44,461 bases of DNA from a virus, in the IMG/VR virus record IMGVR_UViG_3300047510_003113, positions 1 through 44,461 of that record; one strand, written 5' to 3'. The position numbers were made by a program, and so were the translations under genes. Positions 1 to 37,880 of the stretch are shown one piece after another (positions within the stretch are counted from its first letter, which is position 1; each line of letters opens with the position of its first letter). A model generated the notes under the pieces. The model did not search any database. It was not told where the DNA came from and saw nothing but the letters and a program-made list of their open reading frames with translations.

Positions 1-28
1 GGTGGCCCTGGGAGACTTGAGCGCATAA
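1..28 (+). CDS. 3' end of an upstream gene (partial)
   Basis: Reading from base 2 gives eight sense codons and a TAA at 26-28 that shares its last A with the ATG of the next gene. This TAATG overlap matches the coupled spacing used throughout the window, which is the only reason to propose a real gene end here. Nothing can be said about its product. Confidence 0.3.
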
Positions 29-990
29 TGGCTATATTTAAAGATTCTGGTGGAAAACAGCCAGGTACGCCGACAATTGGAACAGCCACATTTGACAACA
101 CAAATGGCAACGCCTCAGTTCCATTTACTGCGCCAACATATGCTGGGAAAGGTACGCTGACATATCGAATCAATGCGAGTACTGGTCAAACAGGAACTGG
201 AGCGAGTTCTCCGATTACCGTAACTGGCCTTACGGCTGGTACTGCTGTAACTTTTACTGTTACCGCAATATCAAATACTGGAACCCAGTCTGTTGCTTCT
301 TCCTCTTCGAACTCCATCACCCCTGGAATTAAACCAAGTGCTCCAACAATTGGCACTGCAACTCCTGGGAACGGCTCTGCAACTGTTGCTTATACTGCTG
401 GTTCTGCTGGTTCTGGTGGTGTAACTTACACCGCAACATCATCTCCTGGAAACCTTACTGGCACTGGTGCATCTCCAATTACCGTTTCTGGCCTTACAAA
501 CGGAACCGCATATACATTTACGGTGACAGCATCAAACACATACGGCTCAAGTACATCTGCTGCTTCAAACTCGGTCACTCCAGGTGTTGCGCCAAGTGCA
601 CCGACAATCGGAACAGCAACTGCTGGAAATGCTCAAGCAACCGTGACCTTTACACAAGGAGCCGCTGGAACCGCTGGCGCTGCTGGCGTTACATACAGGG
701 CTACTTCAAGTCCTGGTGGAATCGTGAAAACTGGAGTCAATGTGACTTCTCTTGTTGTTACTGGTCTTACAAATGGCACGGCGTACACATTTGTAGTGCG
801 TGCAGAAAGCGTGTATGGGAATAGCGCAAACTCTGCTTCTTCAAACTCTGTCACACCTGTGGCGCCTCCGTACTTCCCGCCATTCTTTCCTCCGTTTTTC
901 CCACCATTCTTCCCACCGTTTTTCCCGCCATTCTTTCCTCCGTTTTTCCCACCTTACTTCCCGCCTTTCTTCCCACCCGCTTTTAAGTAG
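28..990 (+). CDS. Fibronectin type III repeat protein with (PPxF)10 C-terminal tail
   Basis: The 320-residue product has three consecutive fibronectin type III-like beta-sandwich domains (about residues 12-98, 99-186 and 187-277). Each opens with a P(S/G)xPTIGTAT-type strand and carries the GLTxGTAxTFxV core typical of phage and bacterial FN3 repeats. Residues 280-319 are ten tandem PPxF units (x is F, Y or A), then a final Lys. There is no signal peptide, so a virion or intracellular location is likelier than Sec export. FN3 domains are common on phage tail and head surfaces, where they are thought to bind host glycans weakly. The gene is followed by a sulfotransferase and eleven 2OG oxygenases, so the proline-rich tail is a candidate modification substrate (inference). 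The ATG overlaps the upstream stop. Role as a tail or decoration protein is probable, not proven. Confidence 0.85.
   Translation: MAIFKDSGGKQPGTPTIGTATFDNTNGNASVPFTAPTYAGKGTLTYRINASTGQTGTGASSPITVTGLTAGTAVTFTVTAISNTGTQSVASSSSNSITPGIKPSAPTIGTATPGNGSATVAYTAGSAGSGGVTYTATSSPGNLTGTGASPITVSGLTNGTAYTFTVTASNTYGSSTSAASNSVTPGVAPSAPTIGTATAGNAQATVTFTQGAAGTAGAAGVTYRATSSPGGIVKTGVNVTSLVVTGLTNGTAYTFVVRAESVYGNSANSASSNSVTPVAPPYFPPFFPPFFPPFFPPFFPPFFPPFFPPYFPPFFPPAFK
865..984 (+). repeat. 12-bp tandem repeat encoding (PPxF)10
   Basis: Ten direct 12-bp units, each encoding Pro-Pro-(Phe/Tyr/Ala)-Phe, differ mainly at synonymous positions (CCN CCN TTY TTY). The unit length is a multiple of three, so expansion or contraction would change tail length without breaking the reading frame. 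Synonymous variation between units suggests selection for the peptide and not a very recent slippage burst. Confidence 0.9.
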
Positions 991-1013
991 GCATGGGTAG
1001 TACTGTTTAGTAC

Positions 1014-1784: not shown

Positions 1785-1789
1785 TTCAC

Positions 1790-2452
1790 ATGCAGCAACA
1801 AAAAACTAGTTTGACAATCGTCCCAGACTTTATTTCCAAAGACGACGCTGAAAAAATTATTGATTTAATATTTAAATCATCAAATCGGTTTAATTCAGAA
1901 GTTACCGAAGAAGGAAAGCAGATATCGACTGCCGATAATACTGCGGGCAATATGGGTTGGGAGGAAGCGCCAACAAAACTAAGGAACGGGTCATCGTATT
2001 ACATTCCTTCTTTTTCCCCCAATCCAAATCCGATGAATGATAATGGCTTTTCAGTTAATTACCGCGAGGATAGTGAATTGTGGTATTTAACAGATAAGTA
2101 TATTATGTCAGTTTCTGAACATATAAAAAGAATGTTCGGCATTAAAGAATTAGAACTAATGGCATCGATTCTTCGCCGCGGGAGTGTTGGGGCGAGTATG
2201 CCGCCCCACCAAGATGGACCAGTATTAAACGGTCAAGAGTTGGTCGATATTGATTTTAGTTGCTTTGTTTTCTTGAATGATGATTTTGATGGTGGTTCTA
2301 TAATCTTTGAAGAACTAGGTGTTTCGTGGAAACCACTGGCAGGTTCTGCTATTTTTTTAAGCAACACTTCAACAAAGTTGATGGTCCATGAGATTGAGAA
2401 AATTACCAGAGGACAGAGATTTTCAATAAATACATTTTTTAGGGCAATCTAA
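1790..2452 (+). CDS. Fe(II)/2-oxoglutarate oxygenase, prolyl-4-hydroxylase-like
   Basis: This 220-residue double-stranded beta-helix enzyme has the full facial triad: His140-x-Asp142 (PPHQDGP), His200, and Arg210 as the likely 2-oxoglutarate carboxylate ligand, ten residues after the distal His. FLNDDFDGGSI (161-171) is the hallmark strand of the 2OG-FeII_Oxy_3/P4H families. These enzymes hydroxylate protein side chains or small molecules using Fe(II), O2 and 2-oxoglutarate. The gene starts five bases after the sulfotransferase stop. The N-terminal half is lineage-specific and may select the substrate. Oxygenase identity is secure; the substrate is unknown. Confidence 0.88.
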   Translation: MQQQKTSLTIVPDFISKDDAEKIIDLIFKSSNRFNSEVTEEGKQISTADNTAGNMGWEEAPTKLRNGSSYYIPSFSPNPNPMNDNGFSVNYREDSELWYLTDKYIMSVSEHIKRMFGIKELELMASILRRGSVGASMPPHQDGPVLNGQELVDIDFSCFVFLNDDFDGGSIIFEELGVSWKPLAGSAIFLSNTSTKLMVHEIEKITRGQRFSINTFFRAI

Positions 2453-2469
2453 TCAGTTAGGATATAACC

Positions 2470-3093
2470 ATGACACCCCCATGGCTAGTTCCGCCTGGAT
2501 ACTTCGGGAAATCAAAAGATAATATTAGGATACTAGAAAACTTTATTGACATAAATGATGTTAAAAAAATATATGAGTTTTCAAAGTCAATTACTGAATG
2601 GGACAATCCAATCAAAGAAAATCAGTACGACCAAAATGGCATCTGCACATATGATGCGGATTACTGGAATGACCGCCAGTGCCCAGCGCATTTGATTAAG
2701 AAGCAAAGCCAAGAAATACACGACCTGGTTGATTTCTACATTATAAAAATGCAGAAATACGCAGAGGATTTTTTCAAGGTAAAACTAGACAAAAGAAGCC
2801 CAGTAATAGTTCGATGGTTCAAGGGCATTGAGCAGCGCCCGCATGCAGATAAGCAACTAAACGATGGTTCGCCAAATCCATTTACCGACTATGACTTAAA
2901 TGCGCTTTTTTACTATAACGATGAATTTGATGGCGGTGAACTTTACTATCCAGAGCATGATTTGGTTGTCAAGCCTCGGCCTGGACTTGCAGTAATCCAT
3001 CCAGGAGATATCCATTACCTTCACGGGGTAAAAATGGTTACCTCTGGAGAAAGGTTCACAACCCCAGCATTTTATTCTGTGACAGAACTATAA
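2470..3093 (+). CDS. Fe(II)/2-oxoglutarate oxygenase, prolyl-4-hydroxylase-like
   Basis: The 207-residue product carries the triad His125-x-Asp127 (RPHADKQ), His185 and Arg195. YYNDEFDGGELYYP (148-161) is the characteristic P4H-type strand, and KPRPGLAVIHPGDIHYLHGV is the second core strand with the distal His. It is compact, essentially a catalytic domain after a short N-terminal region (residues 1-20 include a PPWLVPPG segment). Among the cluster members it looks closest to single-domain prolyl-4-hydroxylase homologues. The preceding leader shares a TAGGATATAA string with the leader of the next gene (3119). The substrate is not visible from sequence. Confidence 0.88.
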   Translation: MTPPWLVPPGYFGKSKDNIRILENFIDINDVKKIYEFSKSITEWDNPIKENQYDQNGICTYDADYWNDRQCPAHLIKKQSQEIHDLVDFYIIKMQKYAEDFFKVKLDKRSPVIVRWFKGIEQRPHADKQLNDGSPNPFTDYDLNALFYYNDEFDGGELYYPEHDLVVKPRPGLAVIHPGDIHYLHGVKMVTSGERFTTPAFYSVTEL

Positions 3094-3118
3094 AAGCACC
3101 CTGATAGGATATAAAAAA

Positions 3119-3820
3119 ATGACAATACTTAAACTACTGCAAGCATCAAATAATCCCCCAAAGGTTGAACAGTCACGACTAAAGCGTGACTGGATGGATG
3201 CAACATACAATAAGCACGCATATCAATGCTTACCAATGACATATGCAAATGTGTACGGATGGGAACTCCAATTACAACAAGAGGTAGTTGTTGAATGGGA
3301 TGGCTCAAATACACCACCAAATATCATTAGCGGAGGAATTCTCGGAGACCAGGTAATTGCGAGCGGAAATATCATAGGAATGGTCTCCTTCAGGGTTGGC
3401 TATGCTTTCAGGACAGAAGAGCCGTACTCTCTATTTATAGGTGGCTCACCAAACTACTTTCTGGACGGCGCTGAGGCGCTTTCAGCAATTATCCCAAGCC
3501 AGTGGTGGCCAGATACATTCGAGATGAACTGGATGATTAACAAGGTGAATGAGCCAGTCGTATTCCCTGCTGGCATGCCATTTATGTTCTTTAATATCTT
3601 TGACTCAACTGTTCTTGAGAATGTAAAGATTGAAACAGAATCCCTTTGGGATGATACCGAACTAGTCGCTTCTCGCCAGAAGTACGGAGACATGAAGATG
3701 AAGAATCAGATGGAAAACCCGTGGACATGGACAAAAGGCATTCGTACTGGACTAGACGCTGATGGGAATAGAATAGGCCCGACATTTACTGGTTTGCCAA
3801 AACTGGATGAGCCTCAATGA
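3119..3820 (+). CDS. DUF6065-like protein of unknown function
   Basis: The 233-residue product fits the pattern I associate with DUF6065: an early RDWMDATY segment, CLPMTYANVYGWEL, then SFRVGYAFRT, LFIGGSPNYFLDGAEAL, IPSQWWPD and NEPVVFPAGMPFMFF. The family occurs in bacteria, often near 2OG oxygenases and sugar genes, and no biochemical role is established to my knowledge. No transmembrane segment or signal peptide is seen. Sitting between oxygenases, it may work in the same modification pathway, but that is only context. The family name is from memory and should be confirmed by profile search. Confidence 0.65.
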   Translation: MTILKLLQASNNPPKVEQSRLKRDWMDATYNKHAYQCLPMTYANVYGWELQLQQEVVVEWDGSNTPPNIISGGILGDQVIASGNIIGMVSFRVGYAFRTEEPYSLFIGGSPNYFLDGAEALSAIIPSQWWPDTFEMNWMINKVNEPVVFPAGMPFMFFNIFDSTVLENVKIETESLWDDTELVASRQKYGDMKMKNQMENPWTWTKGIRTGLDADGNRIGPTFTGLPKLDEPQ

Positions 3821-4477: not shown

Positions 4478-5192
4478 CTATAACCTTGCCAAACTTGCAG
4501 ATATATTTTCGAATACCCCATCGCATCAAGATGGTTTCCCTGGAAAATACTACGGGTATTCGTCAAAGTTGATGGCGGAGCATACTTCTTCAATTAACTT
4601 CGATAGGAGAAACATAGCAACTGGCGGAGTTGATATGGCTATATTCCCGTGGGAGATGTTTGAAGAGACAAATGAAAGAACATTCAGGACATACACCATC
4701 TCGCAAATTTTCCAAGACCTAATTTACGGTCTTAAAAATCCATCAAGCGTTTTGATTTGTGGGCCAGATTATTCAAGCACAAGAGTTGCCCAATGCTGCG
4801 AAAGTGGGATTAAAACTACATTGCTTAATGGCGTATCGTTGGATAATTTTGAAAAGTGCTTCACATCAATAAATGAAAGATTTTCAAAGTTGGAGTATGA
4901 TGTACTAACAATGCAAGATGTGGTTGGCGGGTGCAGTAGCAGATTTGACTTGATTGAAATTTGGGCAAATCAAATTGATATGTCTTTATCGCGGGCAGAA
5001 TACTTTGTTGACATGCTTGGCGATAATGGCCTAATGCTCATAAACGGAACATCGGACTGGGCATTTCTGTATGACAATGATACATACGGACACCCGATGC
5101 ACGACCTGCATGAAGAATTAAAGGGCAATGATTCTGTTTTTGTATACCACATTCCTCTGCACTATGGCTTTACGATTGTGACCAAGAAGTGA
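4467..5192 (+). CDS. Putative Rossmann-fold methyltransferase-like protein (divergent)
   Basis: The 241-residue product has a possible motif I strand-loop-helix around residues 92-115 (SSVLICGPDYSSTRVAQCC), a following strand TTLLNGV, and an FDLIEIWANQID segment before LGDNGLMLINGTSDW. These resemble strands 4 and 5 of class I SAM methyltransferases. The glycine-rich loop is degenerate (CGPDYSS and not GxGxG), so the protein may be inactive or bind something else. The gene overlaps its neighbours by 11 bases on one side and by GTGA on the other. The fold assignment is tentative. Confidence 0.4.
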   Translation: METNYNLAKLADIFSNTPSHQDGFPGKYYGYSSKLMAEHTSSINFDRRNIATGGVDMAIFPWEMFEETNERTFRTYTISQIFQDLIYGLKNPSSVLICGPDYSSTRVAQCCESGIKTTLLNGVSLDNFEKCFTSINERFSKLEYDVLTMQDVVGGCSSRFDLIEIWANQIDMSLSRAEYFVDMLGDNGLMLINGTSDWAFLYDNDTYGHPMHDLHEELKGNDSVFVYHIPLHYGFTIVTKK

Positions 5193-5869
5193 AAGTACTA
5201 GATGATTTCATTAAAGACGAGTCTCTTCTGCAGGAAATAAGAGATGACAAGTCGTTTTTCCCTGAATCTATGGGCGATGCAAAAAAAGTAAATTATTCCG
5301 TTCATCAGTACCATGACCCAGAATCAAAGTGCTTTTCGCCCTATATGTTCTGGGATGGGTGGTGGAGTTCCTCCGCAAACACCCTCAAAAAGCGCGTCAT
5401 CCAAGAAATATGGAAAGATAACCTTCCGCTTCCAGAGAAAGATATATGCGGATTTGAGTACTGGACTAAAACATTTAAACCTGGCCAGTACCTATCCCCG
5501 CATGTAGATGAGGATTCTCATCTTTATAAAGATGCTCAGGTATTTAGTGGCCCAATAACTGGTTGTGTTTATTACCCAGACTTTGAGTCTGTTGAGGGTG
5601 GTTTTCTGGAATTGCATGAACATAGGCTCCGAGATGGAGATACTTCTGCACTTGAGAGGGGAGTCCTAGATGCAGTACTATCCCCAATTGAGCGTCGTGA
5701 AAGGATTGCATTTAAGCCAAATAGGCTCGTCATTTTTGATGCTGGTCATATTGTGCATAATACAACTCCAACAGAGTCTGGAATAAGGCGAGTTTTGATA
5801 GTGAATGTTTGGACAAATGACAATAAGCCACTAGCATTAACAAATAACGGCTTTTATATGGAGAACTAA
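5189..5869 (+). CDS. Fe(II)/2-oxoglutarate oxygenase
   Basis: The 226-residue product starts at a GTG that overlaps the previous TGA (GTGA). Triad residues are His105-x-Asp107 (LSPHVDEDS), a distal His at 190 (or 187, from GHIVH) and Arg200 or Arg201 (SGIRRVL). VEGGFLELHEH (135-145) replaces the usual NDxFDGGE strand, so this member is more divergent than its neighbours. It has a 25-residue insertion (about 146-172) between the strand and the distal half. The general reaction class is secure from the triad; the substrate is unknown. Confidence 0.8.
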   Translation: MKVLDDFIKDESLLQEIRDDKSFFPESMGDAKKVNYSVHQYHDPESKCFSPYMFWDGWWSSSANTLKKRVIQEIWKDNLPLPEKDICGFEYWTKTFKPGQYLSPHVDEDSHLYKDAQVFSGPITGCVYYPDFESVEGGFLELHEHRLRDGDTSALERGVLDAVLSPIERRERIAFKPNRLVIFDAGHIVHNTTPTESGIRRVLIVNVWTNDNKPLALTNNGFYMEN

Positions 5870-6520
5870 ATGAGTAACGAAATTCAAGTTGAATATGTTG
5901 GCGACCCAAAGATGGGCATGCTTGTATACAGGAATATGCTCAAAAAAAAGATGAACTTAGTCGAGCGGCTTGAAAATACAATCGGCTCTAGTTCAACAGC
6001 GCCTTTTATGTGGATGGATGCGCTAGTTGGCGACAGTCAAAAAATGCCAGACTATAGGGACTGTGTTGACTGCAAACTTAGCGATAGGCATTTGGAGAAT
6101 TTGCCTTCTGAGTTTTCAGAACTAAAGAATATCTATGATGACACTGTAAACGCTTTGAATGCTTGCCTGAACCACTATCAGAGCGTGTACAACATAAAGA
6201 TGGACTACAGGGAGGCGATTAACTATGTTCGGTATAGGACTGGACAGCATTTTGCTGTGCATTCGGATTCTGGATTTTCTTACAATTGCACGCTCTCCTC
6301 GGTTATGTACCTGAATGATGAGTATGAAGGTGGAGAACTCTGGTTCCCATATTTAGACATCACATTCAAGCCATCGTATGGAGACATAGTTTTCTTCCCC
6401 TCTACCTATATCTATGCTCATGCATCAAAACCAGTAAGTTCTGGGACTAAGTATTCTGCTGTTACAATGTTTGACTGGAACGATAGAACCCATCAAAGTT
6501 ATGGACCACAATATGCATAA
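5870..6520 (+). CDS. Fe(II)/2-oxoglutarate oxygenase with Lys at the cosubstrate-anchor position
   Basis: The 216-residue product has His131-x-Asp133 (AVHSDSG), MYLNDEYEGGELWFPYL (146-162) and distal His184. The residue ten after the distal His is Lys194 (SGTKYSAV), where nearly every other member of this cluster has Arg. Lys is used to anchor 2-oxoglutarate in some members of the superfamily such as FIH-type enzymes, so activity is not excluded. A GGAG ribosome-binding site ten bases upstream supports the start. It resembles the single-domain P4H-like members of the block. Confidence 0.85.
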   Translation: MSNEIQVEYVGDPKMGMLVYRNMLKKKMNLVERLENTIGSSSTAPFMWMDALVGDSQKMPDYRDCVDCKLSDRHLENLPSEFSELKNIYDDTVNALNACLNHYQSVYNIKMDYREAINYVRYRTGQHFAVHSDSGFSYNCTLSSVMYLNDEYEGGELWFPYLDITFKPSYGDIVFFPSTYIYAHASKPVSSGTKYSAVTMFDWNDRTHQSYGPQYA

Positions 6521-6821
6521 TCAAAATTACGGAAATAGTTTCGTCATCTCAGCAAGCACTCCGTTTGGGAGCGAAGACTTTCTTTTGCTCATAGATGATA
6601 TGACAAAAGAAGCGGAAATATCGAACCAGCGTGGAAGCGCTAAATTCAAATCATATTCACTTGAGGAAGATTCGTTTTGCGCGAAATTTGATGTAGAAAC
6701 ACCAATGACTACAAATATAGAGATTGCTTTTAAGAAGTTAGATGGAATGGATATTTACACTGGAAAAGTAAGTATCGGAGAATTTATGACAGCACCAATT
6801 ACGGTAAAGAGGCATTCGTGA
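6501..6821 (+). CDS. Small beta-rich protein, unknown function
   Basis: About 106 residues, alternating hydrophobic and polar as in an antiparallel beta barrel: NSFVISASTPFGSEDFLLLID, KFDVETPM, IEIAFKKLDG, and a closing GKVSIGEF...APITVKR. This pattern resembles small bacterial domains built from paired TPxG...GxVxxGxFG strands that have no firm function. The start is uncertain: ATG 6501 and ATG 6513 are both in frame and overlap the upstream gene. Its stop overlaps the GTG of the peroxidase gene, so the two are probably coupled. Confidence 0.55.
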   Translation: MDHNMHNQNYGNSFVISASTPFGSEDFLLLIDDMTKEAEISNQRGSAKFKSYSLEEDSFCAKFDVETPMTTNIEIAFKKLDGMDIYTGKVSIGEFMTAPITVKRHS

Positions 6822-7432
6822 ATTTTGCATACGACATGAGTATCGCTTCAATCGACGGCAAAGAAAACATCCTCGATTCTGTAAAAGGCAAGGTTTCACT
6901 GTTCGTGAATATCTCGTCGAAATGCGGCTATGAACCAACATGCAGCAGGCTGTGGTCATATGCAAGAGCATCTAGGCAACTATGGGAACTTCAGCAAGTT
7001 CATGATGAATTCAAAGACAGAGGATTTAGCGTTGTCGGATTTCCTTGCAATCAATTTGGCGGGATGGAGCCAAGAAGCAATAAAGAGATTTCAGCATTTA
7101 TCTCTTGCAACTATCCATTTGTAACATTCCCAATAACTGAAAAAATTGATGTAAATGGACCAAATGAACACCCAATTTACACATATCTAAAAGGTCCAGA
7201 ACTTCGCAATTTTAGTGACAATACCGCCGACTCATCCGAGACGGCGCAACGCGGCCAGAATAAAGCGATGCAAGCGATGATGCGCATTCCGCACAATTGG
7301 GAAAAATTTTTGCTCAGCCGAGATGGAGTGTTTATCTCGCGCTTCAATTGGCAAGATTGGCCACTTGCTGATAAGCCTCTTGTGCATGGCGCTGCTTGGA
7401 CAATTAGGGAAGCGATAGACGCGGTTCTCTGA
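6818..7432 (+). CDS. Glutathione peroxidase-family thiol peroxidase
   Basis: The 204-residue thioredoxin-fold product has the family signatures: NISSKCGY with peroxidatic Cys36, GFPCNQFGG (74-82) with Cys77 and Gln79, and EKIDVNGPNEHPIY. The enzyme reduces H2O2 or organic peroxides using thioredoxin or glutathione. Two oddities stand out. About ten extra residues follow the Cys36 loop, with extra Cys42. The usual Trp-Asn catalytic pair (WNF) reads His159-Asn160-Trp161. The GTG start overlaps the preceding TGA as GTGA. Because Fe/2OG oxygenases make and suffer from reactive oxygen, a peroxide-removing helper inside this cluster makes sense, but that link is an inference. It could also counter host oxidative stress. 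Confidence 0.85.
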   Translation: MNFAYDMSIASIDGKENILDSVKGKVSLFVNISSKCGYEPTCSRLWSYARASRQLWELQQVHDEFKDRGFSVVGFPCNQFGGMEPRSNKEISAFISCNYPFVTFPITEKIDVNGPNEHPIYTYLKGPELRNFSDNTADSSETAQRGQNKAMQAMMRIPHNWEKFLLSRDGVFISRFNWQDWPLADKPLVHGAAWTIREAIDAVL

Positions 7433-7433
7433 T

Positions 7434-8354
7434 ATGCAGGTTGAGAATCTCGGCGGCGGAGTTCTCGTATTTAAAAATACGGTTGAAATAGACCATGATT
7501 CCTTAATTCCGTATCTTGCTGAACTTCATCAAAAAGTGGTTCACGAAGATTTCACCGTAATTCATGATGATGATGGGAATGAGTTATACGCAATTAATCG
7601 CTCTGGACACAGGTATCCACTCAGCGATATTTACAGGGTTAATCGAATTATGGGATTTGCCCCAGATGATGAAAAAGATGAAAAGTATATATTTTTTAAT
7701 AAATGCGAAGATGCAATTTATTCATGCTTATTAAGATACATCGAGCATTTTCCGATGATTCTTCCTTCTCTATGGTGGAAAACACAAGGACATGTAGTCG
7801 CGTATCGGAGTGAATCAGATATGGGTTTTCATTCTGACAATGATGTAAATTACCAGCCTGGCGCAATACCAGACATGCAGGTTGCTACACGACATGTTGT
7901 TGGGGCAATAATGTACTTTAACGATTCAGTCGACTCTATTGAAGAATGCGGGAAATATCAGTATGTTGGCGGCGAACTTGAGTTTGCTTATTTGGGTATT
8001 TGTTATAAGCCAAAGTCTGGCGATGTAATCATGTTCCCATCAAACTATATGGGAACCCATAGGGTCAAAGAATGCTTTGGCGGCTCAAGATACGCATATA
8101 TATCCTACTTCTCTCATGGCTCAGAAGACCCAGGCAAAGGTGTATGCCCATCTGACGCTGGAGCATTTAAACTAAAATCATCTCAAGTATGGATGCCAGA
8201 AGTATTTGAGGACTATGCTAATTATTTGAAAAATAAATATGGAAAAAGTCTGGATAACAATCACATGCTTACACTCCCTCTAAATAGAAGTAATAAGAGC
8301 AACGGCACCACAGAGGAAGTGATTAAGGAAAGAACTAAAAATGATTTACAATGA
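7434..8354 (+). CDS. Fe(II)/2-oxoglutarate oxygenase, LGxG paralogue group
   Basis: The 306-residue product begins with ENLGGGVLVFKN (4-15), a motif shared with four other enzymes of the block. The catalytic triad is His133-x-Asp135 (FHSDND), His209 and Arg219. FPSNYMGTHRVKE and GGSRYAYISYFSHGS are the second-strand signatures of the group. The sequence LRYIEHFPMILPSLWWKTQGH (100-120) precedes the core, also as in the paralogue encoded at 12100-13089. About 75 residues follow the catalytic domain. It starts one base after the peroxidase stop. The substrate is unknown. Confidence 0.88.
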   Translation: MQVENLGGGVLVFKNTVEIDHDSLIPYLAELHQKVVHEDFTVIHDDDGNELYAINRSGHRYPLSDIYRVNRIMGFAPDDEKDEKYIFFNKCEDAIYSCLLRYIEHFPMILPSLWWKTQGHVVAYRSESDMGFHSDNDVNYQPGAIPDMQVATRHVVGAIMYFNDSVDSIEECGKYQYVGGELEFAYLGICYKPKSGDVIMFPSNYMGTHRVKECFGGSRYAYISYFSHGSEDPGKGVCPSDAGAFKLKSSQVWMPEVFEDYANYLKNKYGKSLDNNHMLTLPLNRSNKSNGTTEEVIKERTKNDLQ

Positions 8355-9201
8355 TGTCCAACCAGAACACCTAGGCGGTGGGGTAATTGTATTCAGAGAT
8401 GCATTAACCTTTGACTTTGATTGGGCATGCAATTTTGCCGAAACTGCAGTTGCCGCCGAAATGGCAGATATGTACAAGGAAGGAGTTGACCCAGAAACTG
8501 GGAAAAAGGGATTTATAAATAAAAGCGGCTACTTCTTTGATTATGAAGACACGATGAATATGCCTCGTCGTGGCTCATCAATTCACAGGGATACAAGACC
8601 AGAAGTTATAGAGTTCTTAAAATTCCTTGAAGAATCAAAAGATAAATACCTGCTTAAGTATCTTGTGCAGTTCCCGCTCGCCTATAAAAATATATGGTGG
8701 AAGGTAAAAGGACACATTGTCTCGTATTCAGTTGACCATGGAGGAAGGTTCCTTGGCCCTCACTCTGATACAAGTGCCGACTATGCATATGGCTATCCAC
8801 ACCCGTCAGACCAGTTGGCCACCAGAAATACGCTTTCGTGCATTATCTATCTAAATGACAATTTCATGGGTGGTAGTCATTTTTTTAATTACCTAAATAT
8901 TAGGTACCAAGCAAATCGTGGCGATATTTTGATGTTTCCGTCTAACTTCGTCGCCGCTCATGAAGTAAGACCAGTTACGCATGGGAGTAGATATACATAT
9001 CTTGGCTGGTACGCTCACGGCTCTCCAAATCCAGAAGTAAATGAATTTATAGCAGACCCAGTGTCGCAGCCAGAACTTGCAAAAGTATCAACGAATGTAT
9101 ACATGCCCACACTTCGAGAGGACTTTAGGGCGCATCTTGAGGAAACAAATGTAAATAGAAATTGGCCAGCATGGCACCTTATCGAAAGCATGCATTCATG
9201 A
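8341..9201 (+). CDS. Fe(II)/2-oxoglutarate oxygenase, LGxG paralogue group
   Basis: The 286-residue product has the group N-terminus EHLGGGVIVFRD (9-20), the triad His141-x-Asp143 (GPHSDTS), His207 and Arg217, and the strand IYLNDNFMGGSHFF (169-182). The downstream LGWYAHGSPNPEV is characteristic of this subgroup. The first 14 bases overlap the end of the previous gene, which together with sequence similarity suggests origin by tandem duplication. The middle region (residues 40-95) is the most variable among paralogues and could define substrate choice. Confidence 0.88.
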   Translation: MIYNDVQPEHLGGGVIVFRDALTFDFDWACNFAETAVAAEMADMYKEGVDPETGKKGFINKSGYFFDYEDTMNMPRRGSSIHRDTRPEVIEFLKFLEESKDKYLLKYLVQFPLAYKNIWWKVKGHIVSYSVDHGGRFLGPHSDTSADYAYGYPHPSDQLATRNTLSCIIYLNDNFMGGSHFFNYLNIRYQANRGDILMFPSNFVAAHEVRPVTHGSRYTYLGWYAHGSPNPEVNEFIADPVSQPELAKVSTNVYMPTLREDFRAHLEETNVNRNWPAWHLIESMHS

Positions 9202-9941
9202 AAATGGAGCACATAGGAAATGGCGTAATGATTTTTAGGGGATTAGTCCCAGAACATGAAATTGCTGAGTTTGATATCGATGAAATTGAGAAAAATTGCA
9301 CACCGCAAGGATTCGAGAAGATTGATGGAAAACTTTATTCCAAGGGTGGATATGAGTACGACCCAGAAACCAATGGCAAAGACTACCCGTTAAGGTTTTC
9401 AGAAAATATTGATTCTATTTATTTCACGCAAAGGCTTGTCCAATTAATATACGATGCTGCAGTAAGTTACTGCAAAGTGTTTCCTACTGCAATTGAGTGC
9501 ATAACAGAGCACAAGCAGTTTCACTACATAAAGTATTCAAAGGATGCGCTCATGGGAGCACATTCTGACTGCTCGGCATCATACAAAAGTGATTCTATTG
9601 AGGTTTTGTCAAATAGCGCAATTAATAACACCCTCAGTACTTCAATTGTCCTAAATAATGATTTTTCTGGCGGTGAGTTTGAATTCCCAATTATTGGAAC
9701 TGATATAAAATTAGATGCTGGAGACGGCTTAATATACCCATCAAATTTTATGGGCTGTCATGGGGTTAAAAGAATTACATCTGGGAATAGATGGGCTTTC
9801 TTATCCTTTTTTGCACATGCAAGAACAGACTTTGTTACAACTGAAGAAATCGCCCACAAATATCAGTGGGCTAAAAAATTTCGTGATGATGTTAGCATGT
9901 GGAATTACAACCAGGAAAAAGTTAAGATTGGGCCAGTATGA
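9198..9941 (+). CDS. Fe(II)/2-oxoglutarate oxygenase, LGxG paralogue group
   Basis: I chose ATG 9198 because it overlaps the upstream TGA as ATGA and places the group motif EHIGNGVMIFRG at residues 4-15. The 247-residue product has His122-x-Asp124 (GAHSDCS), VLNNDFSGGEFEFP (151-164), His188 and Arg198. YCKVFPTAIE precedes the catalytic core, very close to YCKVFPVVIE in the next gene, so these two are sister duplicates. The C-terminal tail is short. The substrate is unknown. Confidence 0.88.
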   Translation: MKMEHIGNGVMIFRGLVPEHEIAEFDIDEIEKNCTPQGFEKIDGKLYSKGGYEYDPETNGKDYPLRFSENIDSIYFTQRLVQLIYDAAVSYCKVFPTAIECITEHKQFHYIKYSKDALMGAHSDCSASYKSDSIEVLSNSAINNTLSTSIVLNNDFSGGEFEFPIIGTDIKLDAGDGLIYPSNFMGCHGVKRITSGNRWAFLSFFAHARTDFVTTEEIAHKYQWAKKFRDDVSMWNYNQEKVKIGPV

Positions 9942-10687
9942 TTGTTTCGCACCTAGGTAACGGCATTATGCAGTTTAACAATGTATTCAGCATTGACAAA
10001 GAGCATTTTGAATCGTTCAAAAAAAGCCTCGAAAATACCACTAGGCGCGAAAACAAGATAATTGATGATGATGGCTCCGTGCATACAGAGGGGGCATACA
10101 AAATACCGATAGAGCACATCAAATATTCCCCAACAAGATATACCGACCTTTCTTCTTTTAATGGAAAAGATAAAGAATTAATTTCAACTCTTCAGCAAGC
10201 AATGCACCGATGCGTAGTTGAATACTGCAAGGTATTCCCAGTTGTTATTGAGAATATTAGATGGGTAACTAACGGCTATATCATTAAATACGAAAATGGA
10301 CAATCCATTGGTCCGCATTCCGACTGCAATATTGCATACGCAGAAGATAATGTGACCCCAATAAATACAATACCCATTTACAACATCCTTACTGTTGGAG
10401 CGTTTTTGAATGAGGATTTTGTTGGCGGTGATATTTCATATCGACCATGGGGAATAACTACAAAACCAAAAACTGGCTCTGTGCTTGTATATCCGTCTTC
10501 GTATATGGGCTGCCATGAAGTTTCACCAGTTACAGAAGGGGAAAGATATGCATATTTGCGTTGGTATGGCCATGGAGAGCCACCACACGCTAATAACGAA
10601 AGCGTAATGCATCTTCTGGAGAGTTTTAAAACTAGGAATACTGAGCAAAAACTTGTTCTAACTGGAAAACTTTACGAGACTGAGTAA
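9938..10687 (+). CDS. Fe(II)/2-oxoglutarate oxygenase, LGxG paralogue group
   Basis: The 249-residue product starts at an ATGA overlap with the previous gene and carries SHLGNGIMQFNN (4-15). The triad is His127-x-Asp129 (GPHSDCN), His193 (MGCHEV) and Arg203. The strand FLNEDFVGGDISY (157-169) is typical. It is the last + strand gene of this oxygenase run, and its final 16 bases overlap the convergent gene encoded on the other strand. Close similarity to the preceding gene indicates recent tandem duplication. Confidence 0.88.
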   Translation: MIVSHLGNGIMQFNNVFSIDKEHFESFKKSLENTTRRENKIIDDDGSVHTEGAYKIPIEHIKYSPTRYTDLSSFNGKDKELISTLQQAMHRCVVEYCKVFPVVIENIRWVTNGYIIKYENGQSIGPHSDCNIAYAEDNVTPINTIPIYNILTVGAFLNEDFVGGDISYRPWGITTKPKTGSVLVYPSSYMGCHEVSPVTEGERYAYLRWYGHGEPPHANNESVMHLLESFKTRNTEQKLVLTGKLYETE

Positions 10688-11298: not shown

Positions 11299-11299
11299 A

Positions 11300-12094: not shown

Positions 12095-12099
12095 GGCAA

Positions 12100-13089: not shown

Positions 13090-13139
13090 AATAGTAAGTG
13101 TACCATTCGATAAATATTTCGGCTATACTGCTCAATAAT
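13090..13139. promoter_or_regulatory. Divergent intergenic region with probable promoter
   Basis: Fifty AT-rich bases separate the minus-strand oxygenase operon from the + strand sugar cassette. On the + strand, TATACT at 13124-13129 is a good -10 box only ten bases before the ATG at 13140, implying an almost leaderless transcript. No convincing -35 hexamer lies 16-18 bases upstream. A minus-strand promoter must also lie here, but I see only weak AT-rich candidates. Confidence 0.4.
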
Positions 13140-25250: not shown

Positions 25251-25279
25251 TTAATTTAAATTAAACTCCTCCTTGGGAC

Positions 25280-25332: not shown

Positions 25333-25339
25333 TTCCCAC

Positions 25340-25980: not shown

Positions 25981-26021
25981 TCGTTTGTAATTTGCATTTA
26001 TACTAAATCTGTTTGCATAGC

Positions 26022-31093: not shown

Positions 31094-31100
31094 GTAAAAG

Positions 31101-31982
31101 ATGTCAGCAGTATTGCCAAAGTTTATTGAATGGTATGAAATTGATGGCGTTGAATTTGCCAATCACGGTTATTCTATTTCATCTATTACAAAAGGCCATG
31201 CCGAACACCGTGGCAATAATGTTGAGACTCCGTCTGTCCACGGTGTGCAGTGGAGAGAAAAGCGCCTGTCGGCACGCGCCGAAACATGGAATATTTGGAT
31301 TACTGACAATGAACCAGTATCTGGGTCAGTAGCAGCCACTGAAGAACTGCGCCGCCAGCAATTCAACTCAAACTATGACACGGTCATGCGCGTCCTAACC
31401 AAATTGCCTTCACTGATGACCGTAAAGCACTATAGACGAAATGGTGGAAGCACGGCAGTCCGTGTTGGGTATGCAGAAATTGTCAGCGCATTCAATATTG
31501 ACGACCATAAAGACTTAAATGTTGCCCAATTCTCTGTTGAAGCCATGTTCCCAGACCCACGCTGGTACGACGAGTCAAATCTCTCGCCATCGCTTACAGC
31601 AACGATTAGCAGCGGAACTTCTGCCTCTGTTGCATGCACCCAGACACAGGTAGGAACTGCACCAGTTACATACATGACGGTTACTTTTACTGCTACAAGC
31701 GGATACACACTCGTAAACCCTCGCCTCACAAACTCGACTTATGCTTCATCAACATCAGTAATTGGATACACGGGCTCAATAGCCTCAACAACAAGCGTGG
31801 TGATTGACACCGATGCTCTTACATGCAAAACTGGAACTGGAACTAATGTCATCACTGGGCTGTATCGCTATGGAGCAAGACAGGACTGGATGGAATTATT
31901 CCCAACTACCAATTCGCTTACCTTTACATGCACATCTGGGCGTGGAACTGTGACTATTGCATATAAGAGGGCATACATCTAA
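31101..31982 (+). CDS. Distal tail (Dit-like) protein
   Basis: The 293-residue product follows the tape measure gene by seven bases and precedes the hub gene with an overlap, the position of distal tail proteins. The N-terminal half contains HGYSISSITKGHAEHRGNN and YDTVMRVLTKLPSLMTVKHY, and FSVEAMFPDPRWYDESN marks the end of a Dit-like ring domain. The C-terminal part is a beta-sandwich-like domain with LRLTNS and FPTTNSLTFTC segments. It would connect the tail tube to the hub. The family is assigned mostly by order and size. Confidence 0.75.
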   Translation: MSAVLPKFIEWYEIDGVEFANHGYSISSITKGHAEHRGNNVETPSVHGVQWREKRLSARAETWNIWITDNEPVSGSVAATEELRRQQFNSNYDTVMRVLTKLPSLMTVKHYRRNGGSTAVRVGYAEIVSAFNIDDHKDLNVAQFSVEAMFPDPRWYDESNLSPSLTATISSGTSASVACTQTQVGTAPVTYMTVTFTATSGYTLVNPRLTNSTYASSTSVIGYTGSIASTTSVVIDTDALTCKTGTGTNVITGLYRYGARQDWMELFPTTNSLTFTCTSGRGTVTIAYKRAYI

Positions 31983-34900
31983 TGGCATTAGTAAAAACTA
32001 CAACTTGGGATTTACGGGTAGTTTCAGCGCAAAATGCTGCGTCCGTAATCTCTTATGTTCCGCGCTGGACAAGCATTGAGTTCTCCGACCAATTAAGTGA
32101 CATTGGCTCTGCGCGCGTAGTTCACGACTTGAATGACCCATTCTTTGATGCCTTTGAAGCAGAGAACGGTCAGTCGTTATTGACTGGTCCTTATGCCCTG
32201 CAAATTCTCAGAAACTCAACTGTTGTCTATACATTTTTTATCGAAGATGTCCAAGTTGATAGGGCTGGGCAGACACAACCTTTAATTATTTCTGGTCGCG
32301 GAATTGCTGCAGCGCTTGAATGGGCAGTAGTTCTACCAGAAAACTTCACTGGCAACACTCGTATCGGTGCAAGCACTGTTACCCGTCCGCGATTCTTTGA
32401 CCGCCTATTCCCTGGGTATAACAATGTAACCAGGTGCGCAACTACGGCAAATCTTGCTGCAACATATTCAAATGGATTCTCTACAGATATTCCTGGAGTA
32501 GGAGCGCAATTAACTTCTACATCCAATACTTCGCTAAATACATCTGGTATTGACGGAATCACTGACCTTGTAATTGGTGACACTGTTTTAGTTAAAAATC
32601 AAACTACTGCTGCACACAATGGAATTTATTGGGTTGTTGACTTTGGTTCTGCGTCACGCCCGTGGATTATTCAGCGCGTTGCAACTGCTGACGGCTCTCC
32701 AGTATCAGACCTAGAAATTGGTCGCCGTGTCTGGGTCCAAGAAGGAACAACAAATGGCTATAAGGGTTTTACCCTTACCCCAGCATCAACTATCACGACC
32801 CCAACACAGGTTGGTTCAGTTGGTCTTTCTTATTCTGAAATAACCTCAGTTGATGGTTCGTACACTGGTATTGGCGCATTTTATATTCTATTCCACGAAG
32901 CAAACAGCGGATACGAACATTACACACAGCAGACGCAAAATTGGGGACAGCAAAATCAATCTGCTGGTCGAGGCGCTGACCTCGCTGTTTCATGGCCACT
33001 TTCTCTTGACTCAACACTTGAATCAAGTCTTGGAAAAACAGACTCAAAAGGCAAGGTTGTTCAAGACGGTGGCACATTCTCAATTCCAGTTGGTAAAACT
33101 CTTATTGAGGTAATCAAGCAGGCTGCCGACCAAACACAAAGCCATTGGCATGTTGATGGAAATGGCGTTATCTCGATTGTTGTTAAGCCATTTAGCAGAA
33201 ACGGCGTTGTTAATAGTGTTCCATTTGGCACCGACAGAACAACAGGAAGTGGAGCAAAACTGCTATCTCTTCCAATGCTTGAACAGGTAGAGACAAAGAC
33301 ATCTGCAAGCGCTTTGAGGACTGTTGCCTACGGAAGCGATGGTCGCCAACTTGACCGTTTAATCTCTGGTTCTGCTGATACATACGGAATTAGAGAGTCT
33401 TATTTTGAGAACACTTCAGATGACGCCCCAGCAGTAGCCAATATCACTGCTAGTGCTATTCGTGAAGTTGAAGGCGGAAAAGTACAAGTAACCGCCTCAT
33501 TCGCTGAACGAGAAGGTTTTGTAGTTTATGAGGACTTCAACATTGGAGACAAGGTACTCGTTGAGTCAGAAGTTGGCGTTTATGTAGAAAGAATTGTCGC
33601 TGCTATCTCATGCTCGATTTCTGCAAACAATGAGCAAAAAATAGAACTGACATTTGGTGAGATTTTTCCAGACATTGCTGAAAACTTGAGTATCGCTGCT
33701 GGATTTGGTTCGCTTAACGCAAATACACTTGCGACATTTTCTGGCAAGCCATCAAATGTTTACCTATCTCCACCAACATCAACATCGATTGTTTCTGATG
33801 TTGTTGGGTTAAGCAACCGAGCAGTAATTAGTTGGGACTCCGCCGATGCTGGCCGAGTAAGTCAATACGAAATTGCTTCATACCGAGTTGAAGAAACTCT
33901 TTCTGGACTTGAATATGTTGAAAAAGTAAATTTTGCAAACGATATTCGACGAGAAGGAAATATTGCTGTTATAACTTTGCCAAGCGCTCATGGATACGCC
34001 GCTGGAAACTTGGTAAATATTGAATGCAATGCTGATGACCTGTTTACGGCATTCGCTATACCAATTCTTGCTGTCACATCTAGTGTTGCATTTGCGTACA
34101 ACAATCTTGGCCCAGATATCACTATCACATCGGCATCAGTTGCAAGTATCACAAAAGTAATTGAATATGCCTCAACAATGGTTGACGGCCATAAGAACTC
34201 TGCGGCAATTGAAAACCTAAGCAGTCCAGGACGGACATACTACGCAACAATAACCCCATACAACGAGTTTGGCCTGGCTGGAGAAACAAGTGTTCCAGAA
34301 TCGTTTGTAGCATCATTTGCTGCTTATGAACTTCTTGATGCGACTATCCAATCATCTGGTTATGTAGAGAATACATCTGGATGGAACATTGCTGCAGATG
34401 GTACGGCTGAATTTAACTCGCTAACCGCTACTGCAGACATTAATGGTGGTTCAATCACTATTGGCGGAAATGATTCCACATCATTCCATGTGCGTTCTGA
34501 TGGTGCAATGTGGCTTGGTTCCGCCAGTATTGCTAATGCCCCGTTCTTTGTGAACCCAACAGGAAGCATGTATGCAATATCGGGAAATATTGCTGGATTT
34601 GACCTGTACTCGGAGTACATGACAACTGGTGCATCGTTCGTTGGGAACATGCATTTCGGAAACTTGAATGCTGTTGGAATTGGTACTGGTGAAGAAAACT
34701 ACCAACTTGCTGGTCTATATGTTCTTGGTCCAGATTTTGTAGGCGCTAAAGGAAACAAAGCACTTTTAACATTTGACTCATTAAAGATGAGCAATGCAAG
34801 CAATGAAATAACATCTGTTCACCCAGATGGAATTAAATACTATGGAAATACAAGCGGAGACAAGTTCCGCATGCGGTTTGACAGTGATACTGGCCGTCTG

Positions 34901-35392
34901 TATGTTGATATTGAGCATTCAAACGGCGCTGTTGTAGAATATTGCATTGCTTCATGCGGAGAAGTAACAACAACAACAACGACGACTCCTGCACCTGGAA
35001 CCACTACAACAACAACGACAACCAGCACAACCCCTGCGCCTAATAGGTATTGCACCACTGGCGACCTCGGATTTCATACATGCGATAGTGTTGGGCAATG
35101 TAGGTCTGGAGCATCTGGAGCACTTTGTTCAAGCGACCTCACGACCACTACGACTGCAGCCCCCACTACAACTACCACCACGGCAGCACCTACGACTACC
35201 GCTGGGACAACTGCTGGAACTACGGCTGGCACGACAGCAGCCCCAATTGACTGCAGTAGCGGATATAGTTGCACAGATACTGGTGTCTGCAGCCCGTTGC
35301 CTCCTGGAGCGTCTGCAAACTGCAGGCAGTACACATGTACAAAAGCGGGCTGTGCTTCGTACTCGTACTGCAGTGGACCATCTTGCCCTTAG
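31982..35392 (+). CDS. Tail hub / baseplate protein with inserted fibre-type domain and Thr/Cys-rich tail
   Basis: The 1136-residue product starts like siphovirus ReqiPepy6 Gp37-like hub proteins (DLRVVSAQ, RWTSIEFSDQLSDIGSARVV, then LIISGRGIAAALEW). Residues about 151-285 look like a phage tail-fibre repeat (VIGDTVLVKNQTTAAHNGIY ... VQEGTTNGYKG) inserted into the hub, after which the hub sequence resumes. Later regions include FN3-like strands (590-790) and an Ig/beta region. The C-terminus has two Thr-rich stretches, each next to a Cys-rich module. The ATG overlaps the Dit stop. It probably forms the tail tip and contacts the host; the Cys modules may be disulfide-linked binding knobs. Confidence 0.82.
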   Translation: MALVKTTTWDLRVVSAQNAASVISYVPRWTSIEFSDQLSDIGSARVVHDLNDPFFDAFEAENGQSLLTGPYALQILRNSTVVYTFFIEDVQVDRAGQTQPLIISGRGIAAALEWAVVLPENFTGNTRIGASTVTRPRFFDRLFPGYNNVTRCATTANLAATYSNGFSTDIPGVGAQLTSTSNTSLNTSGIDGITDLVIGDTVLVKNQTTAAHNGIYWVVDFGSASRPWIIQRVATADGSPVSDLEIGRRVWVQEGTTNGYKGFTLTPASTITTPTQVGSVGLSYSEITSVDGSYTGIGAFYILFHEANSGYEHYTQQTQNWGQQNQSAGRGADLAVSWPLSLDSTLESSLGKTDSKGKVVQDGGTFSIPVGKTLIEVIKQAADQTQSHWHVDGNGVISIVVKPFSRNGVVNSVPFGTDRTTGSGAKLLSLPMLEQVETKTSASALRTVAYGSDGRQLDRLISGSADTYGIRESYFENTSDDAPAVANITASAIREVEGGKVQVTASFAEREGFVVYEDFNIGDKVLVESEVGVYVERIVAAISCSISANNEQKIELTFGEIFPDIAENLSIAAGFGSLNANTLATFSGKPSNVYLSPPTSTSIVSDVVGLSNRAVISWDSADAGRVSQYEIASYRVEETLSGLEYVEKVNFANDIRREGNIAVITLPSAHGYAAGNLVNIECNADDLFTAFAIPILAVTSSVAFAYNNLGPDITITSASVASITKVIEYASTMVDGHKNSAAIENLSSPGRTYYATITPYNEFGLAGETSVPESFVASFAAYELLDATIQSSGYVENTSGWNIAADGTAEFNSLTATADINGGSITIGGNDSTSFHVRSDGAMWLGSASIANAPFFVNPTGSMYAISGNIAGFDLYSEYMTTGASFVGNMHFGNLNAVGIGTGEENYQLAGLYVLGPDFVGAKGNKALLTFDSLKMSNASNEITSVHPDGIKYYGNTSGDKFRMRFDSDTGRLYVDIEHSNGAVVEYCIASCGEVTTTTTTTPAPGTTTTTTTTSTTPAPNRYCTTGDLGFHTCDSVGQCRSGASGALCSSDLTTTTTAAPTTTTTTAAPTTTAGTTAGTTAGTTAAPIDCSSGYSCTDTGVCSPLPPGASANCRQYTCTKAGCASYSYCSGPSCP
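34967..35247 (+). repeat. Thr-rich codon repeats around a Cys module
   Basis: Runs of ACN codons with interspersed Ala/Pro encode two Thr-rich linkers (about 34967-35042 and 35139-35247), including a triple AGTT unit. A Cys-rich segment lies between them and another follows. Similar Thr runs occur in the secreted protein at 18245. Thr-rich linkers are typical O-glycosylation targets. Confidence 0.8.
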
Positions 35393-35423
35393 ACTATTAG
35401 TATTAACCAAATAGGAGTAAAAA

Positions 35424-35639
35424 ATGGAATTTGAAGCAACCGAATTTGACACTTTTGCATTTGTCATAGATGGAGAAGTGGCGGTAACGCACTCATTTCA
35501 TCGCCCGACAATGCCAGGCCACTGCGCAGCATTGGCTTCGGAGCCACAAGTAGTGCTTATCCCGCAAGAAATAGTTGGAGAAGTACATAGCGGCTGGCAC
35601 TATATCGATGGGAAATTTGTTCCAGAGGAGCCAAAGTGA
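35424..35639 (+). CDS. Small protein, unknown function, after the tail hub
   Basis: A 71-residue acidic protein with a good AGGAG ribosome-binding site. It contains FAFVIDGEVAVTHSF near the start and a GWHYIDGKFVPEEP end, a pattern seen in small proteins encoded behind phage tail genes. No function known. Its stop overlaps the next GTG. Confidence 0.65.
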   Translation: MEFEATEFDTFAFVIDGEVAVTHSFHRPTMPGHCAALASEPQVVLIPQEIVGEVHSGWHYIDGKFVPEEPK

Positions 35640-35905
35640 CTCCTTGGGAAAAATATAAAGCCGAATTAAAGGCTAAAGAAAAATCACCTTGGCAAAAGTA
35701 CAAAGAGCAACTAAAGCAAGCAAATCCGCTCGACCTAATTGACCTAAATAATCATGCAGAAAAAGATGTGATTGAGCAACGCTATAACACTTGTCTTGAA
35801 TGCCCAGAACTTATCCAACTGACAAAACAATGCAAACAGTGCGGATGCTTTATGGGCTTGAAGACCAAACTTAAGGGTGCAACTTGTCCACTCGGGAAAT
35901 GGTAG
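35636..35905 (+). CDS. Cys-cluster (zinc-ribbon-like) small protein
   Basis: The 89-residue product begins with a direct repeat PWEKYKAELK ... PWQKYKEQLK. It then has six cysteines: CLEC (53, 56), CKQCGC (66, 69, 71) and Cys84 in ATCPLGKW. This resembles small phage proteins with DUF6171-like zinc- or iron-binding clusters (recalled, unverified). It uses a GTG overlapping the upstream stop, and its end overlaps the radical SAM gene by seven bases. An accessory, carrier or substrate role for the radical SAM enzyme is possible. Confidence 0.7.
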   Translation: MTPWEKYKAELKAKEKSPWQKYKEQLKQANPLDLIDLNNHAEKDVIEQRYNTCLECPELIQLTKQCKQCGCFMGLKTKLKGATCPLGKW

Positions 35906-36936
35906 ATAACGCCGAAATAGATTCGGCAATTTGGTCAAATATTGCATCTACCAAAATCGCAGATGCACAAATAGACCCATTTGGTTTCTGTAACGCCAAG
36001 TGCTGGTTTTGCCCAGTTAGATATCAAAAGAATCCACTGCATGCTGCTAAGCACATGCCAGTAGACATGATGGACAAAATACTTGGAGATTTAGCAAGCG
36101 AGAAACACTCTCCAAATGGCGTCGTATCAAAAGATTTTTTTCACTTTTATACTGCTCACTATAACGAGATTCTCCTATATAAGCATCTTGAAGACATGCT
36201 CAAACTTGCAAGGTCATACAAATTCAAGACAATGATTCTTTCTAATGGAACAAATTTCTCAGAAAAAAATGTTGAAATTCTTTCAAAATACAAAGATGTA
36301 ATTAGTGGAATCAATCTGAATATCCCTGCCTTTGAAGAAAAACTTTGGCAAGATAGAAGCGGCGTAACATCAACAAGTTTTGATGAAATGATTAATGGAA
36401 TCAAAGGCGCCATGTGCGAGTTTGAAGAATTCGTATCGAACGGTGGATTTTCTATTGGCGTAAATATCCCTACATGGGAGTCAATGTTTGAGTCTGGCGG
36501 CTGGATGAAATTGGGCGAAAACGCACCAAAGATTGATTTGTCTTCTCAAGGAGAGCAGTACCAACAGGTAAACTTGGCAAAGCAGATTTTTCCAAATCTA
36601 AATATTTTCCCAGTCTCTTCTTTGATTGATAGGGCATCAATACTCGCGTCACATGGCGTGATAGACAATTCAGAAGCGATTGTCAAGTTCAGACCAGGCT
36701 CAAAACGGGTTGTGAATTGCTCTAATGGTGCTACTGGAAGGCTCTATGGATGGCTCCATGTAAATGCAATTGGCGAGGCATTTATATGTTGCAACGACTA
36801 CAACTTTGACTATGTTTTTGGTTCTTTCAAAGAGAACAATTTGAGAGAGATTTGGCTGTCTGAAGACCATGCCAAAATGATTGCTCACTCGCTTAAAACA
36901 ATCTGCACAAAATGCGCATCAGCGGTATGGGAATGA
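35899..36936 (+). CDS. Radical SAM enzyme with C-terminal Cys-rich (SPASM-like) region
   Basis: The 345-residue product has the CxxxCxxC cluster motif at 31-38 (CNAKCWFC), which binds the [4Fe-4S] that cleaves SAM. TMILSNGTNF and INLNIPAFEEKLWQ are expected barrel strands. The C-terminal part has GWLHVNAIGEAFICCNDYN, FGSFKENNLREIW and ICTKC, like the SPASM/twitch auxiliary-cluster region of peptide-modifying radical SAM enzymes. I chose ATG 35899; an earlier TTG is in frame. It overlaps the glycosyltransferase downstream as ATGA. A post-translational or sugar modification is likely; the substrate is unknown. Confidence 0.85.
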   Translation: MVDNAEIDSAIWSNIASTKIADAQIDPFGFCNAKCWFCPVRYQKNPLHAAKHMPVDMMDKILGDLASEKHSPNGVVSKDFFHFYTAHYNEILLYKHLEDMLKLARSYKFKTMILSNGTNFSEKNVEILSKYKDVISGINLNIPAFEEKLWQDRSGVTSTSFDEMINGIKGAMCEFEEFVSNGGFSIGVNIPTWESMFESGGWMKLGENAPKIDLSSQGEQYQQVNLAKQIFPNLNIFPVSSLIDRASILASHGVIDNSEAIVKFRPGSKRVVNCSNGATGRLYGWLHVNAIGEAFICCNDYNFDYVFGSFKENNLREIWLSEDHAKMIAHSLKTICTKCASAVWE

Positions 36937-37880
36937 AAAGCGTTTTTATCCAGATTCCTTCATATAGAGACCTTGAATTGCAGAAAACAATTATTGATGC
37001 AGTTCACCAATCTTCTGGAGAAAACTACCTTCATTTTGGAGTGCACAACTGTTATCTAACAGATGACGAAATGCAGTTGGATTACCCAAAGTTTGAAAAT
37101 GCTAAAGTTTCGCAAGTAAATAGCCTTGCTCCTCAGAATATTGGGCTTCAACTATCTAGAAAAATTGCTAATAATTTTTACGATGAAGAAGATTTTTATC
37201 TTCAGATTGACTCCCATATGAGGTTCGTAAAAAATTGGGATAAGCATTTAATAGATGCATTCTCTATGTACCAGTACTTTGGGATTAAGAAGCCATTGAT
37301 TACCCAATATCCATCTACATATTCATACGACGCGCAGATGAACGAGCGGTATGTTCCTTCTAGAGAAGTAAGGAATATTGACTACCACCCAACAAGAATC
37401 TCATTTCACGAGAACAAACTGCAGTTCTCAAATATCAGAATTCCATCTCAGACAGCAATGTCAATGGACAAGCATTGCGCATTTACGGCTTCTGTATCAG
37501 GCGGCTTTATCTTTACTGAAGGTTCGTTCCACCAAATAACGCCAAACCCAAAGATTGCATTTTGGGGAGAAGAGCCACTGATTGCCGCGAGAGCATTTAC
37601 TAGCGGATTCGACTTAGTGGTTCCGCACATGGACATTGTTTGGCACCTATATGCGTCAGGGCAAGAGCAAAAATATGTAAGACGGCATCATGCTTGGCAG
37701 GATTTCCCAGAAATATGGCCAAAATTAGACTCTGATTCAAAGGCAGAATATTTCCGAATTATGACGCAAAGAGAAATTGGGCGCTATGCTCTTGGTTCTG
37801 AGCGAAGTCTTGATGACTTTGAGCAGTTTGCTGGGCTAGACTTTAGAACTGGCAAAGTTACACAGATAGACCTTAGATAG
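36933..37880 (+). CDS. GlcNAc-family glycosyltransferase (PF11397/GT60-like, Skp1 Gnt1-like)
   Basis: The 315-residue product starts at an ATGA overlap and opens directly with MKSVFIQIPSYRDLELQKTI, the start of the PF11397 GlcNAc family. Further signatures are FYLQIDSHMRFVKNWD (88-103) with the DxH metal site at 93-95, KPLITQYPSTY, SGGFIFTEGSF, and FWGEEPLIAARAFTSGFDL. Known members include the cytoplasmic UDP-GlcNAc:hydroxyproline-Skp1 transferase of Dictyostelium, which acts after a prolyl-4-hydroxylase. Given ten P4H-like enzymes in this window, hydroxyproline or another hydroxylated residue is a strong candidate acceptor. The family call is firm; donor and acceptor are inferred. Confidence 0.88.
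   Translation: MKSVFIQIPSYRDLELQKTIIDAVHQSSGENYLHFGVHNCYLTDDEMQLDYPKFENAKVSQVNSLAPQNIGLQLSRKIANNFYDEEDFYLQIDSHMRFVKNWDKHLIDAFSMYQYFGIKKPLITQYPSTYSYDAQMNERYVPSREVRNIDYHPTRISFHENKLQFSNIRIPSQTAMSMDKHCAFTASVSGGFIFTEGSFHQITPNPKIAFWGEEPLIAARAFTSGFDLVVPHMDIVWHLYASGQEQKYVRRHHAWQDFPEIWPKLDSDSKAEYFRIMTQREIGRYALGSERSLDDFEQFAGLDFRTGKVTQIDLR

Follow-up and report, generated by a model that had tools for sequence, protein, structure and literature searches.

Two candidate gene sets for modifying low-complexity tail-protein linkers in an uncultured phage

Mucin-type O-glycosylation of threonine and serine is initiated by ppGalNAc-transferases. Mimivirus hydroxylates and glucosylates collagen, a virus-encoded hydroxylate-then-glycosylate logic like the one that a preliminary description proposed for the phage locus studied here; Mimivirus differs in being a eukaryotic virus and in modifying collagen lysine. 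The GT60 family includes Thr/Ser polypeptide α-GlcNAc-transferases, to which the Skp1 enzyme is related (PMC8724618, PMC7185993), and shares the DxH metal motif with GT27 (PMC7185993). For phage 2OG oxygenases, roles in nitrogen metabolism or DNA repair have been suggested (PMC3037559).

The window analysed here is the whole of a 44,461-base virus record (IMGVR_UViG_3300047510_003113) of an uncultured phage. We consider it probable that the phage carries two separate gene sets, each acting on low-complexity linkers in tail proteins that the phage itself encodes: one combines oxygenases and a DUF6065 protein with a PPxF-repeat protein, the other a PF11397 glycosyltransferase with a Thr-run protein. 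The genes and their motifs are established, as are the modelled fold, the linkage and the co-occurrence. The preliminary description had observed correctly that a PF11397 gene, ten P4H-like oxygenases and ten PPxF repeats are all present in the window. Of its further glycosyltransferases one gene is supported (13098–14237; PHROGs, 7e-32), the gene at 14221–14886 has no family match, and its sulfotransferase is a weak match below the Pfam cut-off. The first set comprises the following features:

28–990, plus strand: fn3-repeat protein with a C-terminal (PPxF)10 tract, the proposed hydroxylation substrate
1790–2452, plus strand: P4H-like 2OG-Fe(II) oxygenase
2470–3093, plus strand: P4H-like 2OG-Fe(II) oxygenase, adjoining the DUF6065 gene
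3119–3820, plus strand: DUF6065 protein (PF19541, 146 bits), conserved partner of the PPxF/P4H set
5189–5869, plus strand: P4H-like 2OG-Fe(II) oxygenase
5870–6520, plus strand: P4H-like 2OG-Fe(II) oxygenase
7434–8354, plus strand: P4H-like 2OG-Fe(II) oxygenase
8341–9201, plus strand: P4H-like 2OG-Fe(II) oxygenase
9162–9941, plus strand: P4H-like 2OG-Fe(II) oxygenase
9938–10687, plus strand: P4H-like 2OG-Fe(II) oxygenase
10672–11298, minus strand: P4H-like 2OG-Fe(II) oxygenase
12100–13089, minus strand: P4H-like 2OG-Fe(II) oxygenase

The PPxF tract consists of exactly ten repeats (865–987) behind the fn3 domains, and its mixed codons rule out a simple DNA repeat. All ten P4H-like oxygenases retain an intact HxD...H triad and the K/R ligand for 2OG; the nearest sequence relatives with solved structures are a prolyl 3-hydroxylase, prolyl 4-hydroxylases and PKHD hydroxylases. 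These oxygenases would hydroxylate prolines in the PPxF repeats behind the fn3 domains. Ten are too many for a single substrate, so some surely act elsewhere, which counts against the proposed role. An eleventh 2OG enzyme in the window is of the TauD type (11300–12154). The array also contains a glutathione-peroxidase-like gene (6818–7432), which recurs in 16 of 88 PPxF locus groups.

The pairing of PPxF tracts with oxygenases is widespread. A DNA pattern search of IMG/VR returned at least 120 stretches encoding such tracts, with PPFF, PPYF, PPHF and APPGFF among the variants. PF13640 is present in 48 of 50 long PPxF records compared to 2 of 50 records chosen by a random 14-mer, a control unmatched for habitat and lineage (p = 3e-23), and most of the positive PPxF records carry five or more PF13640 matches. 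The nearest P4H-like gene lies at a median distance of 305 bp from the PPxF gene and is downstream of it in 70 of 73 cases. The association also appears among records selected for the glycosyltransferase instead: at least three P4H matches occur in all six that contain PPxF, versus 5 of the 44 that do not. Dereplication of the PPxF loci to 88 groups reduced kinship but did not remove it, so the sample may be partly related. The hydroxylation half of the proposed pathway, with P4H-like enzymes acting on the PPxF protein, is thus strongly supported by co-occurrence and adjacency, the tract itself being the putative substrate. Many PPxF proteins terminate exactly in PPxFK; in others (L011, L067, L087, L094 and L102), some tracts are followed by CINEDTLILTSEGYKM-like sequence resembling Hint (hedgehog/intein) domains.

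DUF6065 accompanies this set closely. It is present in 41 of 50 PPxF records and in none of 50 random ones, and 44 of 49 DUF6065 genes have a same-strand oxygenase within 300 bp. In 37 of those 44 loci, the closest window relative of the adjoining oxygenase is the gene at 5870–6520. The DUF6065 model resembles a β-clip/dUTPase-like fold (Z about 10), a likeness of fold only. A second uncharacterised family near PPxF genes (consensus IPxWYK; L105, 3297–4028) is a remote DUF6065 homologue (hhalign, 96.8%).

Among the sequenced phage isolates searched, PPxF and DUF6065 do not occur together. P4H homologues are frequent in cyanophages. In Synechococcus phage S-SCSM1 (laboratory host WH7803), seven oxygenase genes surround that of a short tail fibre, SSCSM1_245, whose Arg/Pro/Phe repeats (RQPRNF/RAPFNF) are the clearest Pro/aromatic repeat of that genome. 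We regard S-SCSM1 as a lead for the PPxF/oxygenase set, not as proof; its authors remark that viral genes of this kind are functionally uninvestigated (PMC9602691). The same genome (L366, 3512–4678) contains an annotated tryptophan-halogenase-like gene, possibly another tailoring enzyme. The single 2OG genes of the T4-like cyanophages S-ShM2, P-SSM4 and ACG-2014g were rejected as members of the set: they lie in replication or head regions with no Pro/aromatic repeats nearby. In P-SSM4 and ACG-2014g the 2OG gene adjoins uvsX and has no Pro-rich neighbour, which counts against the proposed role.

These cyanophage copies beside uvsX are what would be expected if the substrates of the oxygenases were small molecules, DNA or host factors, as in the usual auxiliary-metabolic-gene view, and if their linkage to PPxF reflected shared ancestry or a cargo site by tail genes. 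The diversity of the 2OG families fits such a role, as do the published views, which name nitrogen metabolism, DNA repair and host reprogramming (PMC3037559, PMC9602691). We give this explanation real weight but consider it unlikely, because the directional linkage to PPxF persists across the 88 dereplicated groups and because Thr-run tail loci, at comparable sites, are nearly devoid of P4H (1 of 53).

The second set lies at the other end of the window:

31982–35392, plus strand: tail-tip-like protein whose C-terminal part holds Thr runs (tract 34967–35389) and ends in a Cys-rich stretch, the proposed O-glycosylation acceptor
35424–35639, plus strand: conserved 71-residue protein between the Thr-run gene and the glycosyltransferase gene
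35636–35905, plus strand: 89-residue Cys-rich protein (CxxCP..QCxxCG)
35884–36936, plus strand: radical SAM/SPASM protein
36912–37880, plus strand: PF11397 glycosyltransferase with a predicted ppGalNAc-T fold; start probably at 36933

Assignment of the last gene to PF11397, made in the preliminary description, was borne out by a profile search (131 bits against a curated cut-off of 21). The start at 36933 chosen there fits better than 36912, since relatives begin with a methionine at that position. Viral contigs yielded 80 relatives; grouping these and the window gene at 90% identity gave 43 clusters. Asp100 and His102 (the DxH motif), Glu221 and His245 are invariant in 40 sequences. A sequence search against the PDB found no relative, and matches came from fold comparison alone: the model (pLDDT 92.9) aligns best with ppGalNAc-transferases (Z 19–22), followed by the next group at 17. 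The analogy to Skp1 is too narrow, because GT60/PF11397 also holds mucin-type Thr/Ser transferases. Literature searches of incomplete coverage turned up neither PF11397 in phages nor mucin-like phage tails with a ppGalNAc-transferase.

The genomic surroundings point to threonine. With a Thr run defined as at least 11 threonines in 20 residues, sought on the same strand within 2.6 kb, runs are found upstream of the glycosyltransferase in 28 of 43 clusters, downstream in none, and in 0 of 522 random windows; among cellular relatives of the enzyme they occur upstream in 2 of 48. At least two T-x-x-P motifs are present in 24 of 26 Thr-rich proteins, and TAAP in 18. As a genomic association, this is the Thr/Pro-rich acceptor type of mucin-type (GT27/GT60) transferases. 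The CxxCP..QCxxCG motif is likewise directional (upstream in 27 of 43 clusters, downstream in none, 0 of 86 random loci), and proteins like that at 35424–35639 lie upstream of the glycosyltransferase in L127, L130, L172 and L192. We propose that the cytoplasmic, retaining, ppGalNAc-T-like enzyme glycosylates the tail-tip protein, whose gene lies 1.5 kb upstream: threonines of its T-run/TAAP/TPAP tract would receive a sugar, which the family suggests is HexNAc.

Of the Thr-rich tail proteins originally proposed, 31982–35392 can be kept on weak matches (Phage_Tail_Tip, 9e-4; minor tail, 5e-4), whereas 18245–20560 has no tail-protein support. The latter encodes a 771-residue protein that has long Thr runs and an N-terminus resembling a signal peptide, and it does not adjoin any PF11397 gene. 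The radical SAM/SPASM gene extends into the beginning of the glycosyltransferase gene, a pairing kept in L127 and L133. Just upstream of another PF11397 relative lies a tryptophan-halogenase-like gene, judged by eye and possibly another tailoring enzyme (L196, 7202–8758). In the reverse direction, Thr-run proteins were rejected as a general marker of the glycosyltransferase, as none of 50 Thr-run records has a PF11397 match above the cut-off.

The strict Thr run is absent from 15 of the 43 clusters, and some relatives sit among replication genes (L004/L005, L154); both facts count against a threonine-directed role. These few relatives within replication blocks would suit an enzyme that modifies DNA, a lipid or a host glycan and stands behind a tail gene incidentally, as would a distant jumbo-phage homologue that adjoins carbamoyltransferase and DNA-metabolism genes. 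We nevertheless judge a different acceptor of this kind to be unlikely, given the strictly upstream position of the Thr runs and the modelled ppGalNAc-T fold. The jumbo-phage homologue (L353, Xanthomonas phage XacN1, 5992–9709), by its carbamoyltransferase neighbour, suggests a different acceptor for that protein; the neighbours of a PF11397 homologue in a Stenotrophomonas phage (L354) are all annotated as hypothetical.

Could the two sets nonetheless form one pathway, in which the oxygenases make hydroxyproline in PPxF and the PF11397 enzyme adds GlcNAc to it, as on Skp1? All parts lie in one window, and P4H is mildly enriched in the same phages (20 of 50 glycosyltransferase records, 2 of 50 random). 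Across viral genomes the co-occurrence of P4H with PPxF was upheld, but that of PF11397 with PPxF was not: PF11397 is found in 2 of 50 PPxF records, exactly as in 2 of 50 random ones, and we reject a single pathway of the Skp1 type as the function in general. The usual neighbour of the glycosyltransferase is a Thr run and not PPxF (28 versus 2 of 43 clusters), and the neighbouring gene families of PPxF loci include no widespread conserved glycosyltransferase. In the window about 36 kb separate the PPxF gene from the glycosyltransferase; there and in G177, the sets stand apart, each beside its own partner. In L190/L192–194, a P4H-rich genome, the glycosyltransferase gene immediately follows that of a PPYF tail protein lacking a Thr run; L131 and L183 also have PPxF together with the glycosyltransferase, and L131 mixes both linker types. 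For the window phage we consider a single pathway very unlikely; the L190/L192–194 arrangement and the mixed linkers of L131 suggest that hydroxyproline glycosylation may hold in a minority.

The chemistry that we propose for both sets is read from linkage, motifs and fold, and their substrates and purpose are putative: modified linkers would be stiff, protease-resistant or shielding. A broader and rather speculative extension is a general system among aquatic phages for the chemical hardening or cloaking of low-complexity tail linkers, in which each kind of linker has its own kind of enzyme (prolyl hydroxylases and DUF6065 for PPxF, a mucin-type transferase for Thr runs), the minority with PPYF and the glycosyltransferase being a true phage hydroxyproline-glycosylation pathway.

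Compared to known systems, the mycobacteriophage virion glycosylation machinery reportedly uses other glycosyltransferases, with no Thr-run tail linker and no oxygenases described. It resembles the present case in that the capsid and tail proteins of the virion reportedly carry glycans at their C-termini (Freeman et al. 2023, cited in PMC12619734 and PMC10568470). The phage oxygenases share HxD...H...K/R with prolyl 4- and 3-hydroxylases and PKHD hydroxylases, their closest solved sequence relatives, and differ in forming multigene arrays beside PPxF tail proteins, their putative substrates. For abundant and unexplained phage oxygenases, a linked repeat-bearing tail protein suggests a definite candidate substrate, which could be examined by mass spectrometry. 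With the PF11397/GT60 α-GlcNAc-transferases (Dictyostelium Skp1 GnT1 and the T. cruzi mucin enzyme), the phage glycosyltransferase shares the Pfam family and DxH; its acceptor is most likely the Thr run, whereas a Skp1-type hydroxyproline acceptor is unsupported in most relatives. With the ppGalNAc-transferases (GT27) it shares the predicted fold (Z about 22 over 260–270 residues), DxH and the Thr/Pro-rich acceptor type, but the modelled protein spans only a catalytic domain, with no lectin domain, and is about 12–15% identical. Such an enzyme beside Thr-run tail proteins would, if our reading is true, mean mucin-type O-glycosylation of phage particles.
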